A stretch of 64,000 nt of DNA, from positions 1 through 64,000 of the forward strand of contig MGTV01000028.1 in assembly GCA_001799635.1 (NCBI GenBank). Reading direction: 5' to 3'. The notes under the pieces are model-generated. The model had not been told where the DNA came from, did not search any database, and saw only the letters and a program-made list of their open reading frames with translations. Of the stretch, positions 2,452 through 55,609 are shown piece by piece. Source of the DNA: Elusimicrobia bacterium GWA2_62_23 (GTDB taxonomy: Bacteria; Elusimicrobiota; Elusimicrobia; Elusimicrobiales; UBA9959). Within the stretch, counting starts at the first letter, position 1. Every line of letters begins with the position of its first letter. The position numbers and the translations under genes are program-made.

Positions 2452-3332
2452 TGAAAAAACTGATACTGCTGACGCTGGTCCTGGCCCCGCTCCCCGCCGC
2501 CGCGCAAGGCGGCCGCCCGCCAGCACCCGCGGCCTCCCTGACGGCCAATTTCAGTTACGCCACTCCCGACGGCCTGATAAGCAGGCGCGCCGGCCTGCTC
2601 GGCGAGGCCGCCCTTGGAGAACTGGCCGGGCTGAAACTGCGCCTGGCGGCCGAAGGCGCCCACCTGCGCTCTCTGGGCCCGGACCATTTCCCGGAGGAGC
2701 TCTACAAAACGGACCTGCGTTTGAGCGCCGAAGATAAAAAAACGCGCCTGAGCCTGAACCTCGGTTCCAACTCGGACCGGCCCTTCCACTCCCCCTCCGA
2801 AACCGACCTGGGCGTGAACTTCGCGCGCACCTTCTCCGAAAAAGGACCGCATGCCTGGCTGTGGGGCCTGAATTATTCCACCCGCCGCACCTTCCTGCGC
2901 GGTATGCCCATGCCTTTCATAGGCTACCGCTATACCACGCCCACGCTCACCATAGTGGCGCCTTTCATGGCCCGCTGGCAGGCCTTCAAAACCGTCTCTT
3001 TCTCCGCCTCCTACCTGCCGGTGCGCAATTTCCGACTTGCGGCGAATTGGCGCCCGCTGCCTTACTTCAGCGCGGAACTCGAGGGCGGTTCTGTGCTGGA
3101 GCAGTTCCTGCTGGCCGGCCGCTCCGACAAGGGCGAGGCCTTCTTCTATGAGGCTCAGTACATAACGCTGAAGCCTTCCCTGTCGCTGTCGCGGCGCCTG
3201 CAGATCACCCCCTCGCTCGGCTGGCAGCTGAAAGGCGTTTACTATGACGGCTCCAGCTACGATACCCACCACGGCAAGAAACGCCTTGGCGGCGGCCCTT
3301 CCCTGGGCTTGGGCGTCAAATACAATTTCTAA
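2451..3332 (+). CDS. Outer-membrane beta-barrel protein
   Basis: A 293-residue protein with a clear signal peptide (MKKLILLTLVLAPLPAAAQ), followed by alternating hydrophobic/polar stretches typical of beta strands, such as TDLRLSAEDKKTRLSLNLG and KLRLAAEGAHL. It ends in Phe (GVKYNF), the usual outer-membrane barrel C-terminal signature recognised by the BAM machinery. I do not recognise a specific family. Translation is probably coupled to the upstream M50-like gene through TGATG. Confidence 0.7.
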   Translation: MKKLILLTLVLAPLPAAAQGGRPPAPAASLTANFSYATPDGLISRRAGLLGEAALGELAGLKLRLAAEGAHLRSLGPDHFPEELYKTDLRLSAEDKKTRLSLNLGSNSDRPFHSPSETDLGVNFARTFSEKGPHAWLWGLNYSTRRTFLRGMPMPFIGYRYTTPTLTIVAPFMARWQAFKTVSFSASYLPVRNFRLAANWRPLPYFSAELEGGSVLEQFLLAGRSDKGEAFFYEAQYITLKPSLSLSRRLQITPSLGWQLKGVYYDGSSYDTHHGKKRLGGGPSLGLGVKYNF

Positions 3333-35096: not shown

Positions 35097-36053
35097 GTGA
35101 AACCGACGCTCTTACTGCTGTTCCTCTTCTGTTCCCCGCTCGGGGCGCAGGAACTTATCCCTTATAACGCGGGCAAGAAATGGGGCTACGCGGCGCCCGG
35201 CGGAAAACTGGTGCTCCAGCCGCGCTACGATTCGGCCGAACCCTTCAGCGAAGGGCTGGCGCTGGTGCGGCAGGGCTCCTCCTACGGCTTCATAGACAAG
35301 GCCGGCAAAAAGGTCATCCCTTTCAAATACCAGTCGGCCGGCTCCTTCTCCGAGGGGTGCGCGCCGGCCAAGACCCGCGGCCTCTGGGGCTGCGTGAGCC
35401 GCGACGGAAAGGCGCAGGTGCCTTTCGAATACGAGCTGCTGCTGCCTTTCAGGGAGGGCGCCGCGCCCGCCAAAAAGAACGGCCGCTGGGGCCTGCTGCT
35501 CAAGGACTCTCGCGAGTTCCGCGGCGGCATCTACGAGGAGATCTACCCGGTCAGCGAAGGCCTCGCCCGCGTGCGGGTGGGCGGCAAATACGGCTACATA
35601 GACCCTTCGGGCCGCGAGGCGCTGCCGCCGGTCTACGCCGAGGCCTTTCCTTTCGCCGGCGGCTTCGCCACGGCCAGGCTGGGCGACAAGTACGGCTTCA
35701 TCAGCCGCGCCACGCTCGGCTTCAAAGAAAAACCCTATTTGGGCATAGGCCCGTACTCCGGCGGCCTGGCGCACGCGCAGAGCCTGGCGGCCGAAGGCCG
35801 CTGCGGCTACATAGACGCGGAAGGCCGGGAGAAGGTCCCGTTCGATTTCACCATGTGCGCCTCCTTTGACGAGGGGCTGGCGCCTGTAATGAAGGACTTC
35901 AAGGACGGGTGGGGCTACGTAGACGCGGCCGGCAGGGTGGTCATCTACTTCAAGTACGACCAGGTTACCGGCTTCCGCGGCGGCCTGGCCAAAGTCGCGC
36001 TGAAAGGCCGCTCCTTCTATATAGACGCCAAGGGTTTCGAGTACAGGAAATAA
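35097..36053 (+). CDS. Secreted WG-repeat protein
   Basis: 318 residues with a GTG start and signal peptide (MKPTLLLLFLFCSPLGAQ). About nine WG-type repeats follow, each with a pattern like WGYAAPGGKLVLQPRYDSAEPF (shortened forms: YGFIDKAGKKVIPFKY, YGYIDPSGREALPPVY, WGYVDAAGRVVIYFKY). WG repeats form small beta units, probably for binding. No enzyme domain. Periplasmic or surface location. Divergent from coaD. Confidence 0.85.
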   Translation: MKPTLLLLFLFCSPLGAQELIPYNAGKKWGYAAPGGKLVLQPRYDSAEPFSEGLALVRQGSSYGFIDKAGKKVIPFKYQSAGSFSEGCAPAKTRGLWGCVSRDGKAQVPFEYELLLPFREGAAPAKKNGRWGLLLKDSREFRGGIYEEIYPVSEGLARVRVGGKYGYIDPSGREALPPVYAEAFPFAGGFATARLGDKYGFISRATLGFKEKPYLGIGPYSGGLAHAQSLAAEGRCGYIDAEGREKVPFDFTMCASFDEGLAPVMKDFKDGWGYVDAAGRVVIYFKYDQVTGFRGGLAKVALKGRSFYIDAKGFEYRK

Positions 36054-36055
36054 GG

Positions 36056-36104
36056 CAAAAAGAAAGGGCCCGCGAGAAACCCACTAAGAGGGGCCGCGGG
36101 CCCA
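36056..36104 (-). ncRNA. Small hairpin RNA, copy 1
   Basis: On the minus strand, a consensus promoter (36137-36110) is followed within a few bases by a 9-base perfect stem (36103-36095 with 36074-36066) enclosing a 20-base loop, then TTTCTTTTT. The predicted transcript of about 48 bases is little more than this hairpin plus a U tail. Copy 2 (38433-38480) keeps the loop (18 of 20 bases) and tail, while two stem pairs change on both sides. No ORF fits. Function unknown. Confidence 0.65.
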
Positions 36105-36109
36105 TCCAT

Positions 36110-36137
36110 ATTATAGCAGACCCTATTGACTTGTCAA
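36110..36137 (-). promoter_or_regulatory. Promoter of small RNA copy 1
   Basis: Minus strand: TTGACA (36137-36132), 16-base spacer, TATAAT (36115-36110). Both boxes are perfect. The only thing downstream before the U-run is the hairpin. Confidence 0.8.
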
Positions 36138-36144
36138 GGGGGGT

Positions 36145-36984
36145 CTAATCGCGCGCCATGTGCCGCCAGGTCTGCGTCTGCCAGGCAGGCGCGCCGAACA
36201 GCCGCACCTGCTCCTGCGCCGCGTTCATGGCGCCTTCAGTCTCCGCCAGTTCCGGGGCCAGGATGCTGGAGATGGTTATTTCGGAATTATCCTCGCTCAG
36301 AGAGCCCCTGAACCTGATCGGGCTGCGCGTGCCCACCCCGGTGCCGGACATGCCGCCCGGTGAACTGCCCCGAAAACTGCGCCCGTTCACCTTGCCGGTA
36401 CCATAAACGGCCCGGGGAAAGTCCCAGCAGTGCATGGTGATGGTCAGGTCGTCGCCGCGTATTTCGAATTCATAGCGCCAGCAGTCCAGCCCGCCGCCCC
36501 AGTTCCCACGATAATCGGCCGTGCCGTGCTTCTTCGACGGCGCCAGTTCCTCGGGCTTGGGCTTGCCGGCCCTGGCCGCCATGTAAAAGCGTTTATCCTC
36601 GGCCGCCTCTTCGTAGCGGTGGGCGGCTTCCAGCGCGTTGGAGCGGTTGAAATAGCACTGCGTCCACCAGGGGGCTATCTTTATGGCTTCCTGGTACATG
36701 CGGGCCGCCTTGTCAAAATCAGAATCATTTACGGCGTCCAGGTGCACCGCCATGGCCCGGATAAAATGCTTTTTCGCCTCGGTCGGTATCTTGGGCTTGG
36801 CCGACATGTTATTGGCGAAGCGTATCAGTTCCTCCCGCAATGGCGGGTTGTCCGGATCCTCGCTTACCCTGGTCAGGAGGGTCAGGAAGCGCTCCTGTTC
36901 CTTGACGTAAGCAGGGTCCAGCGCCAGCGCGCGCGGCGCGGCGGAAACCAGCATCAATACGGCCAAAACGAAGCTTTTTCGCAT
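36145..36984 (-). CDS. Secreted TPR-like protein of unknown function
   Basis: 279 residues with signal peptide MRKSFVLAVLMLVSAAPRALA. The N-terminal half is helical with a TPR-like unit (FDKAARMYQEAIKIAPWW...CYFNRSNALEAAHRYEEAAED). The C-terminal half is beta-rich (YEFEIRGDDLTITMHCWDF, VNGRSFRGSSPGG), resembling a small lipocalin/META-like module, family not recognised. Its stop lies 7 bases from the -35 box of small RNA copy 1. Confidence 0.6.
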   Translation of the reverse strand: MRKSFVLAVLMLVSAAPRALALDPAYVKEQERFLTLLTRVSEDPDNPPLREELIRFANNMSAKPKIPTEAKKHFIRAMAVHLDAVNDSDFDKAARMYQEAIKIAPWWTQCYFNRSNALEAAHRYEEAAEDKRFYMAARAGKPKPEELAPSKKHGTADYRGNWGGGLDCWRYEFEIRGDDLTITMHCWDFPRAVYGTGKVNGRSFRGSSPGGMSGTGVGTRSPIRFRGSLSEDNSEITISSILAPELAETEGAMNAAQEQVRLFGAPAWQTQTWRHMARD

Positions 36985-37005
36985 AAAAGAGAAAACCGCG
37001 GGCGA

Positions 37006-37022
37006 GGACGGCGACGCCGTCC
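37006..37022. promoter_or_regulatory. Palindrome in the divergent TPR/S1 intergenic region
   Basis: GGACGGCGACGCCGTCC is a perfect 17-base palindrome 22 bases upstream of the TPR-like gene start. A minus-strand TTGACA at 37094-37089 may be the -35 of that gene, although a good -10 is not obvious. Either a leader hairpin or a protein-binding site. Confidence 0.35.
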
Positions 37023-37107
37023 CGGTAACTCCACGAAATTGTGTTTAACTTCCCCCTTACCTAGGGTTTATCATTTCGATCCGAAGGGTGTCAATAGAGC
37101 CCGCAAT

Positions 37108-37137
37108 TTGCCGGGGACCCCCGGGTAAAGTTATAAT
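37108..37137 (+). promoter_or_regulatory. Promoter of the S1-like gene
   Basis: TTGCCG (37108-37113), 18-base spacer, perfect TATAAT (37132-37137). The start codon is at 37182, leaving a leader of about 38 bases. Confidence 0.6.
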
Positions 37138-37181
37138 GTATATATCAGCAGCCGCAGCAACCCCTATCCCAAGAGGCACAC

Positions 37182-38381
37182 ATGCACACCAACGATACCC
37201 ACGCTACCGAGCACGAAGAAAATTTCGCGGAGATGTTCGAACAGAGCTATAAAGAACCCTCCAGGCTGGAGCCCGGCCACAAAGTAGAAGCCCCCATAGT
37301 GAAGCTGACCCCCGAGTGGGCCCTTATCGAAGTGGGCGGCAAAGGCGAAGGCTACGTGGACATCAACGAGCTCAAGGACGCCGAAGGCAATTTAATAGCC
37401 CGCGAGGGCGACCGGCTGCGCGCGTATTTCCTGCGCTCCGAGGAAGGCGAGATGCGCTTCACCACCCGCATCGGCTCCGGCCCCGCGGCCCGCGCCCAGA
37501 TAGAGGACTCCTTCAAGAACCACATCCCCGTGGAAGGCACCATCTCCCGCGAGATCAAGGGCGGTTTCGAAGTTTCCATAGGCGCCGTGCGCGCTTTCTG
37601 CCCGTTCTCCCTGATGGGCGCCCGCCGCGACGAGGACAAGGCCGCCTACGTGGGCCGCGCCCTTTGGTTCGAGGTCATAGAATTCACCGGCCGCAACGTG
37701 GTGCTGTCCCGCAAGAACATCGTGGAGGCCGAGCGCCGGGAGCGCACCGCCGCGCTGCGCGAAACCCTGCACGAGGGCGACCGCGTCAAGGGCGTGGTCA
37801 CCTCCCTGCAGAAGTTCGGCGCCTTCGTGGACATCGGCGGCATAGAAGGCCTGCTGCCCGTTTCCGAAATGGCCTGGGGCCGCACCGAAAAAGTCTCCGA
37901 CCTGCTCAGCGTGGGCCAGCCCGTGGAAGTGCTGCTCAAGCGCCTGGACTGGGACAACGAGCGGATCTCCCTCAGCCTCAAGGACGTGCTGCCCAACCCG
38001 TGGGACACCGCCGACCAGAACTGGCCGAACGGCTCCTACCACACCGGCCGCGTCTCCCGCCTGACCACTTTCGGGGCTTTCATCAGCCTCGGCGAGGGCG
38101 TGGACGGGCTCATCCATATTTCCCGCCTCGGCAACGGCGAGAAGCGCATCGGCCACCCCGAAGAAGTGCTCAAGGTGGGCCAGGAGATAGAAGTGAAGGT
38201 GGAATCCGTGGACACCGCGGCCAGGAAGATCTCCCTGGTGCCGGCCTCCATCAGCCGCGCCGAAGACGAGCACACCGAGACCCTGTCCAAGTACCGCGGC
38301 CAGACGGAAACCGGCTCGCAGGCCATGGGCTCCCTGGGCGAGACGCTCAAGAAGGCCCTGGAGAACAAGGGCAAGCTCTGA
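37182..38381 (+). CDS. rpsA: 30S ribosomal protein S1-like, four S1 domains
   Basis: 399 residues. Four S1 (OB-fold RNA-binding) domains: about 25-90 (VEAPIVKLTPEWALIEVGGK), 110-180 (VEGTISREIKGGFEVSIG), 195-270 (VKGVVTSLQKFGAFVDIGG) and 280-360 (HTGRVSRLTTFGAFISLGEG). The third and fourth are closest to the RNA-binding consensus (FGAFV-x-IGG-x-EGLLP). E. coli S1 has six domains; four- to five-domain forms are common in other phyla. It should bind mRNA at the 30S subunit. Followed by a strong terminator, and flanked by the two small RNA copies. Confidence 0.88.
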   Translation: MHTNDTHATEHEENFAEMFEQSYKEPSRLEPGHKVEAPIVKLTPEWALIEVGGKGEGYVDINELKDAEGNLIAREGDRLRAYFLRSEEGEMRFTTRIGSGPAARAQIEDSFKNHIPVEGTISREIKGGFEVSIGAVRAFCPFSLMGARRDEDKAAYVGRALWFEVIEFTGRNVVLSRKNIVEAERRERTAALRETLHEGDRVKGVVTSLQKFGAFVDIGGIEGLLPVSEMAWGRTEKVSDLLSVGQPVEVLLKRLDWDNERISLSLKDVLPNPWDTADQNWPNGSYHTGRVSRLTTFGAFISLGEGVDGLIHISRLGNGEKRIGHPEEVLKVGQEIEVKVESVDTAARKISLVPASISRAEDEHTETLSKYRGQTETGSQAMGSLGETLKKALENKGKL

Positions 38382-38390
38382 GCCGCCCGT

Positions 38391-38428
38391 AAAAAAGGCC
38401 CGGCTTCGAAAGAGGCCGGGCTTTTTTA
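38391..38428. terminator. Terminator after the S1-like gene
   Basis: AAAAAAG, stem GCCCGGC/GCCGGGC, loop of 10 bases, CTTTTTT. The flanking A and T runs also pair, so it could stop transcription from both sides. Confidence 0.85.
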
Positions 38429-38432
38429 TTCC

Positions 38433-38480
38433 AAAAAGAAAGTGCCCGTGAGAAACCCACTGAAAGGGGCCACGGGCACA
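38433..38480 (-). ncRNA. Small hairpin RNA, copy 2
   Basis: Same design and strand as copy 1: promoter, then a 9-base perfect stem (38479-38471 with 38450-38442), 20-base loop, TTTCTTTTT. Compared with copy 1, a G-C pair has become T-A and a C-G pair has become T-A, so both stems remain perfect. This compensatory change argues that the RNA fold is selected. Lies in the convergent gap after the S1-like gene. Confidence 0.65.
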
Positions 38481-38485
38481 TCCAT

Positions 38486-38513
38486 AGTATAGCAGGCCTA
38501 TTTCAGGTGTCAA
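38486..38513 (-). promoter_or_regulatory. Promoter of small RNA copy 2
   Basis: Minus strand: TTGACA (38513-38508), 16-base spacer, TATACT (38491-38486), matching copy 1 in spacing. Confidence 0.75.
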
Positions 38514-38538
38514 GACCCAAAAAGGTCCTACTCAAAAA

Positions 38539-38600
38539 TAGGGACAGACACCAATTTCCAAAGCCTGCCTTACCCGCAAGCAAATAGGTGTCTGTCCCTA
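38539..38600. repeat. REP/MITE-like palindromic element (GGGACAGACACC type)
   Basis: TAGGGACAGACACC (38539-38552) and its exact reverse complement (38587-38600) enclose 34 bases. Inverted GGGACAGACAC-type repeats are, from memory, frequent in genomes carrying Y1 (REP-associated tyrosine) transposases; no transposase is present here, so this would be a non-autonomous copy. It abuts the stop codon of the MetH activation gene. Confidence 0.55.
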
Positions 38601-38602
38601 AT

Positions 38603-55414: not shown

Positions 55415-55487
55415 GCCGACTTAGCTCAGCTGGTAGAGCAGCTGTTTTGTAAACAGCAGGTCATCGGTTCAAATCCGATAGTCGGCT
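55415..55487 (+). tRNA. tRNA-Thr (anticodon TGT)
   Basis: Acceptor GCCGACT (55415-55421) pairs with AGTCGGC (55480-55486). D-arm with AGCTCAGCTGGTAGAGC, anticodon stem CTGTT/AACAG with loop TTTGTAA giving anticodon TGT, T-arm GGTTCAAATCC. CCA is not encoded. TATAAT lies 11 bases upstream (55398-55403). Confidence 0.95.
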
Positions 55488-55533: not shown

Positions 55534-55609
55534 GGCCCCTTCGTCTAGCGGTTAGGACGCTGCCCTCTCAAGGCAGAGATCACGGGTTCGAATCCCGTAG
55601 GGGCCGCCA
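55534..55609 (+). tRNA. tRNA-Glu (anticodon CTC)
   Basis: Acceptor GGCCCCT (55534-55540) pairs with AGGGGCC (55599-55605), discriminator G, and CCA is encoded (55607-55609). Anticodon stem CTGCC/GGCAG with loop CTCTCAA gives anticodon CTC. T-arm CGGGTTCGAATCCCG. The 3' end lies inside the recombinase ORF on the other strand. Confidence 0.95.
55580..55609. other. Probable attachment site in the tRNA-Glu 3' end
   Basis: The last 10 codons and stop of the serine recombinase on the minus strand are made of tRNA-Glu sequence (reading WRPLRDSNP). Recombinases or integrases whose ends run into a tRNA 3' half mark integration at that tRNA. I did not find a second copy of the T-arm/acceptor sequence in the rest of the window, so the other boundary is unknown or lost. 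Confidence 0.5.

Follow-up and report, generated by a model that had tools for sequence, protein, structure and literature searches.

Two short units on the minus strand of the window, the 64,000-nucleotide stretch of an Elusimicrobia genome analysed here, run from a strong promoter straight into what looks like a terminator hairpin. Do they encode a tiny RNA, and if so, what could an RNA of this size do? We consider the copies very probably to be real noncoding RNA genes. Our preferred reading, to which as a whole we give a probability of about 0.5, is that they belong to a paralog family of one Elusimicrobiales family and would produce a trans-acting, housekeeping-like hairpin RNA with a protein-bound core, transcription being predicted from the sequence.

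Anatomy of the two window copies

Including the promoter, the units span 36137-36057 and 38513-38433, and both follow the same plan: TTGACA, 16 bases ending in TGC, TATAAT or TATACT, six bases, a 9-bp stem with 20 internal bases, and TTTCTTTTT. The features of the two loci are as follows.

36110..36137, minus strand: promoter of copy 1 (class W); TTGACA at 36137-36132, 16-nt spacer, TG-C-TATAAT with TATAAT at 36115-36110; 12/12 consensus
36126..36137, no strand assigned: palindrome TTGACNNGTCAA overlapping the copy 1 -35, a possible operator; one in the window versus 0.03 expected
36057..36103, minus strand: predicted 47-nt RNA of copy 1; 5' arm 36103-36095, core 36094-36075, 3' arm 36074-36066, U-tract 36065-36057; fold z -4.6, covariation, model match 102 bits
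38486..38513, minus strand: promoter of copy 2 (class S); TTGACA at 38513-38508, 16-nt spacer, TG-C-TATACT with TATACT at 38491-38486; 11/12 consensus
38514..38528, minus strand: GGACCTTTTTGGGTC, directly 5' of the copy 2 -35; kept in S-class copies
38433..38479, minus strand: predicted 47-nt RNA of copy 2; 5' arm 38479-38471, core 38470-38451, 3' arm 38450-38442, U-tract 38441-38433; fold z -3.9, model match 97 bits
36145..36984, minus strand: gene 5' of copy 1 on the same strand, with a weak TPR match; its stop lies 8 bases before the copy 1 -35
35097..36053, plus strand: WG-repeat gene (PF14903), convergent with copy 1; a neighbour that recurs in two other genera
37182..38381, plus strand: S1-domain gene (PF00575), convergent with copy 2; a neighbour, outside the RNA gene

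This plan agrees with the preliminary description, which had reported two minus-strand copies with a consensus promoter, 16-base spacing, a 9-base stem and a U-tail. The copies share 83% identity across 83 nt (E 1.7e-18), so their resemblance is not due to chance. Their stems differ at two pairs, and in each both partners are altered (G-C to U-A and C-G to U-A), as had been described. Both predicted RNAs fold better than shuffled sequence, with the z values listed above. The -35 and the extended -10 are invariant among relatives. The first stem base lies 7 nt past the -10, where the start is expected, and the predicted RNA would thus lack an unpaired 5' tail. The earlier impression of a tiny RNA gene is therefore supported by anatomy and fold, and by the covariation described below, all of it evidence from sequence.

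An inverted repeat, AGGGACAGACACC...GGTGTCTGTCCCT, lies just 5' of copy 2 (38539-38602) and resembles REP-type palindromes. The window also carries a tandem pair of tRNA genes (55415-55487 and 55534-55606); no tRNA or tmRNA gene was found near the copies.

Occurrence and genomic sites of the family

A covariance-model search of relatives, suggested in the preliminary description, found the RNA gene across the window's family. A model built from the window's genus gave strong matches in 32/32 genomes of that genus. With a broadened model, which was partly built from sequences that it then finds, strong matches (E<=2e-7) occur in 54/59 genomes of the family (Elusimicrobiales), spread over 10/13 genera; the genus-only model also finds all 22 out-of-genus genomes among the 54 (E<=1.9e-4). 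Five family genomes have no convincing copy, one of them 98% complete (G034) and four 60-89% complete. The window's genome has four strong copies by covariance model, and genomes across the family have about 1-5.

Outside the family, 295 genomes sampled from the phylum gave few and weak matches (33-45 bits). Promoter-hairpin units of other families (L115-L118 and L120-L123), which fall in this range, are not claimed as homologs; their stems and neighbours are different, and the out-of-family matches were for these reasons left out of the count. A DNA pattern run over 84,980 species genomes matched 21 stretches, of which all with informative titles are Elusimicrobia or Elusimicrobiales, the others being titled just 'bacterium'.

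Other short units of similar build were seen along the way. In the sister family of the same order (L120, L121 and L123, ~3001-3067) a consensus promoter leads into a simple hairpin, TACAAAC...GTTTGTA, with a T-run, which may represent an analogous tiny RNA. A further kind of promoter-hairpin-U-tract unit (L077, at G000:C37:97760-97829, and L126, L127, L130 and L131) is followed by a conserved CCATNGGAT...ATCC(A/G)ATGG hairpin; in L077 and L126 it sits after a radical-SAM-like gene. Just past position 1530 in L024, L026, L027 and L030 there is another conserved, short, transcribed-looking unit (GGACGTCAGCCATAGGCGACCTCCA...) that ends in a terminator-like ACCCGCCAAAAGCGGGT hairpin. It has the same promoter type as the tiny RNA genes and no Rfam match.

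The copies fall into classes by position. Class W, to which copy 1 belongs, adjoins the WG-repeat gene and coaD and is also present in two other genera (L095, L099 and L101). Class S, with copy 2, lies between the S1-domain gene and a methionine synthase activation gene. Class U adjoins rlmB and an MltA-type lytic transglycosylase gene in 30/32 genomes of the genus and in several other genera, and class T adjoins a type II secretion F-protein gene (L075). In other genera, some genomes have one strong copy only, at the rlmB (U), coaD/WG (W) or metK site.

The two window copies do flank the S1-domain gene, as had been pointed out, but this bracketing is incidental, given copies beside rlmB/MltA, the type II secretion F-protein gene and metK. 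S1 autoregulation was rejected as an explanation because most copies lie away from the S1 gene. One copy or more is retained in almost all genomes, though at loci that differ, and the neighbours are different in different genera; both observations argue for action in trans as the most likely mode.

Copies that are several per genome and have a palindromic core, in some genomes in tandem ~125-170 bp apart, could also suggest a promoter-bearing, REP- or MITE-like mobile palindromic element. We find this highly improbable and rejected it on synteny: sites are orthologous across genera (rlmB; coaD/WG), copies per genome are few, the order of promoter and U-tract is constant, and the stem arms diverge with compensation.

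Fold, covariation and the terminator question

All members fold on a shared plan. The outer stem usually has 8-11 bp, and the 3' side alone carries a mostly U-rich bulge about 2-4 bases in size. Next come a CC/GG-type inner stem and an apical loop that is about 8 bases long (UUAUAAAC, UUAUCGAC, AUAUCGAA and similar), and a U-rich tail follows the hairpin. The 20 internal bases of the window copies had been taken for a loop with 18 identical positions. The count is correct, but the loop is not a plain one, since these bases form an inner CC/GG stem with a bulged U, the 3' U-rich bulge and a small apical loop. By eye, the CC-N8-GG core is like helix 69 of 23S rRNA, a likeness that we do not claim as a relationship.

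A DNA search of 60 relatives yielded many full-length copies within the window's genus. In a first structure-blind alignment of 33 copies from this search, 96.5% of the cells are paired and 8/14 pairs have changes on both sides; with the partner slid, pairing is 30-58%. In a structure-blind alignment of 22 distant members, 94% of the cells are paired, while slid controls reach at most 57%. Double-change cells number 49, with no more than 20 in the controls, and the covariation score is 0.507, with at most 0.236 for the controls. In a model-fitted set of 72, which is biased towards structure, 98.1% of the cells are paired and 178 are double-change cells. Together with the conserved bulge, inner stem and loop, the structure-blind covariation supports the earlier proposal that the hairpin fold is under selection.

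Compensatory stem changes alone, however, are what any terminator would show, and selection for a terminator could explain them. The conserved bulge, inner stem and loop, combined with family-wide retention, are stronger evidence. In class U, the near-universal copy, CACCUUAUCGACGGU is identical in 30/30 genomes. Across these 30 genomes, the bits per site are 2.0 for the -35, 1.91 for the extended -10, 1.90 for the 5' arm and 1.88 for the core; spacer and tail reach 0.98 and 1.02, and the flanks about 0.5. A second terminator hairpin lies 3' of the class U RNA gene. The S1 gene's own terminator, which adjoins copy 2, has a loop that varies freely (window, L021 and L040), whereas the bulge, inner stem and loop of the tiny RNA are conserved, which points to selection past the needs of a terminator.

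The surroundings of the copies bear on the same question. A co-directional gene, commonly with its stop within tens of bases, lies upstream of 66/73 copies, and a convergent gene lies opposite 53/73, both counts being from a codon-usage gene caller over loci that are not independent. The hairpin thus probably also terminates the co-directional upstream gene; for copy 1, the gene at 36145..36984 stops so close to the -35 that it probably uses the copy 1 terminator too. It is conceivable, though quite unlikely, that the units are purely cis elements, with the hairpin as terminator of the upstream gene, the promoter as a roadblock to the convergent gene or an insulator from it, and the RNA itself functionless. 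This arrangement of neighbours is what such an element would show. Yet about 1-5 copies per genome are kept in nearly the whole family, the RNA is retained while neighbours change, and bulge, inner stem and loop are conserved past the needs of a terminator, unlike the freely varying loop of the S1-gene terminator.

An RNA gene with its own promoter beside the 3' end of a co-directional gene, as found for those 66/73 non-independent copies, has the position expected of a 3'-UTR-located sRNA. Classical enteric examples of such sRNAs with their own promoter are Hfq-dependent. The tiny RNA is like them in that its promoter directly follows the upstream gene and the terminator is probably common to both, and unlike them in that Hfq is undetected in its family.

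Known RNAs and a possible mode of action

No Rfam 15 family matches the tiny RNAs at its gathering score; there are only weak matches of 11-17 bits, the best being ctRNA_p42d (RF00489) at 16.8 bits versus a cut-off of 50. Scans at gathering and E-value thresholds gave no convincing match, and a known catalogued RNA was therefore rejected. Like ctRNA_p42d, a counter-transcript RNA of repABC plasmids, the tiny RNA is a short single hairpin, but it scores far under the gathering cut-off and has no repABC locus. The chromosomal neighbours across copies (WG repeat, coaD, S1 domain, metH, rlmB and MltA) include none for which the RNA is antisense to a plasmid replication gene. The literature searched holds no described small RNA of Elusimicrobiota.

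Hfq (PF17209) and 6S RNA (RF00013) were each found in 0/41 family genomes (controls 5/14 for both), and CsrA (PF02599) in 2/41, the window's genome not among them. CsrB/RsmZ and 6S are structured trans-acting RNAs that work through protein binding, and the Csr/Rsm system has redundant paralogs. The tiny RNA is far smaller than any of these, in a family nearly without CsrA and with 6S undetected. An identity with 6S was rejected, because RF00013 has no match in the 41 genomes and describes a long rod with a central bubble, compared with 47 nt here. Given how Hfq and CsrA are distributed, neither an Hfq-dependent sRNA nor a CsrB-type sponge is likely.

The preliminary description knew of no RNA family with this design. 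That holds for the family, which has no Rfam match, but the design itself is known from RNAII of plasmid pMV158, a 48-nt antisense RNA in copy-number control whose promoter leads into an intrinsic terminator hairpin (PMC4485353). This G-C-rich hairpin with U-tail is the only structured part of RNAII, a cis counter-transcript of the copG-repB region that requires a 17-nt unpaired 5' tail for function (PMC4485353). Like RNAII, the tiny RNA is about 48 nt long, and its G-C-rich hairpin with U-tail doubles as the intrinsic terminator; it differs in having no 5' tail, in being chromosomal and multi-copy, in its conserved bulge and inner stem, and in being kept family-wide. The novelty lies in a chromosomal family of single-hairpin RNAs that is lineage-wide and has no catalogued relative, not in the promoter-to-terminator-hairpin plan.

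Could the RNA pair with messages? The loop is strongly conserved inside each class, and single-hairpin antisense RNAs are known, as RNAII illustrates and as the plasmid counter-transcript RNA among the weak Rfam matches recalls. In RepG of Helicobacter pylori, the terminator loop is reportedly the active, target-pairing part. This small RNA of an Hfq-less bacterium acts on a G-repeat within the leader of an mRNA (PMC8295292). The tiny RNA resembles it as a small RNA of a host in which Hfq is undetected, here without a known G-repeat target. A trans-acting, Hfq-independent antisense sRNA with the loop as a short mRNA-pairing seed, as in RepG, is nevertheless a rather unlikely alternative. Loops differ between classes and genera, Hfq is undetected, and the 12-nt core CCUUAUCGACGG of the near-universal copy is unique as an exact match in 5/12 genomes when both strands are considered. 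A universal long antisense target is thus unlikely, and a long antisense RNA was rejected for want of a universal complement to this core; seeds of 6-8 nt would be compatible with these results.

In the preferred reading, that of a protein-bound, trans-acting hairpin, a very strong sigma-70-type promoter would start transcription at the first stem base and give an RNA of ~47 nt, whose single hairpin would serve as product and as intrinsic terminator at once. The 5' end inside the stem would make the RNA stable and abundant. The selected part is the core, formed by outer stem, 3' U-rich bulge, CC/GG inner stem and ~8-nt loop. Most likely the RNA acts in trans, in a housekeeping or global role. 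As its mode of action, binding of the core by a protein, which the RNA would titrate or modulate, is more likely than long antisense pairing. Protein binding is preferred mainly by exclusion of alternatives and is the least certain step. Against the reading as a whole stand the loop differences between classes, the position of most copies at gene 3' ends like plain terminators, and the 98% complete G034 without a convincing copy.

The promoters offer a further link. The window's genome has ten occurrences of TTGACNNGTCAA versus two for a control. The palindrome precedes 2/3 of its c-di-GMP-I riboswitches, and the third has a related CTTGA-N4-TCAAG. In L206 (1500-1670), L207 (1985-2273) and L214, c-di-GMP-I riboswitch promoters have TTGACNNGTCAA or the CTTGA-N4-TCAAG palindrome and a CTGCTATAA -10, common to tiny RNA genes. 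In class U a palindrome close to TTGACNNGTCAA lies upstream of the -35 at a nearly fixed distance. The shared palindrome and CTGCTATAA -10 make a regulator common to tiny RNA genes and c-di-GMP-I riboswitches possible. A more specific proposal, which we regard as unlikely, is a lineage-specific housekeeping ribonucleoprotein RNA. In a family with Hfq and 6S undetected and CsrA nearly absent, the 47-nt hairpin would bind a core protein, such as a factor of translation, ribosome assembly or RNA polymerase, and control it globally, and would possibly be co-regulated with c-di-GMP-controlled genes via this palindrome.

Since almost all sequenced members of this poorly studied Elusimicrobia family carry the gene, it probably serves a function common to them. 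Its minimal size, its occurrence in ten genera, a promoter at consensus strength and an unvarying core in 30 genomes suggest that the RNA is probably abundant and its partner important. This previously uncatalogued, very short RNA gene would form a new Rfam family, and it would be a minimal case of a self-terminating RNA working in trans, in bacteria where Hfq is undetected.
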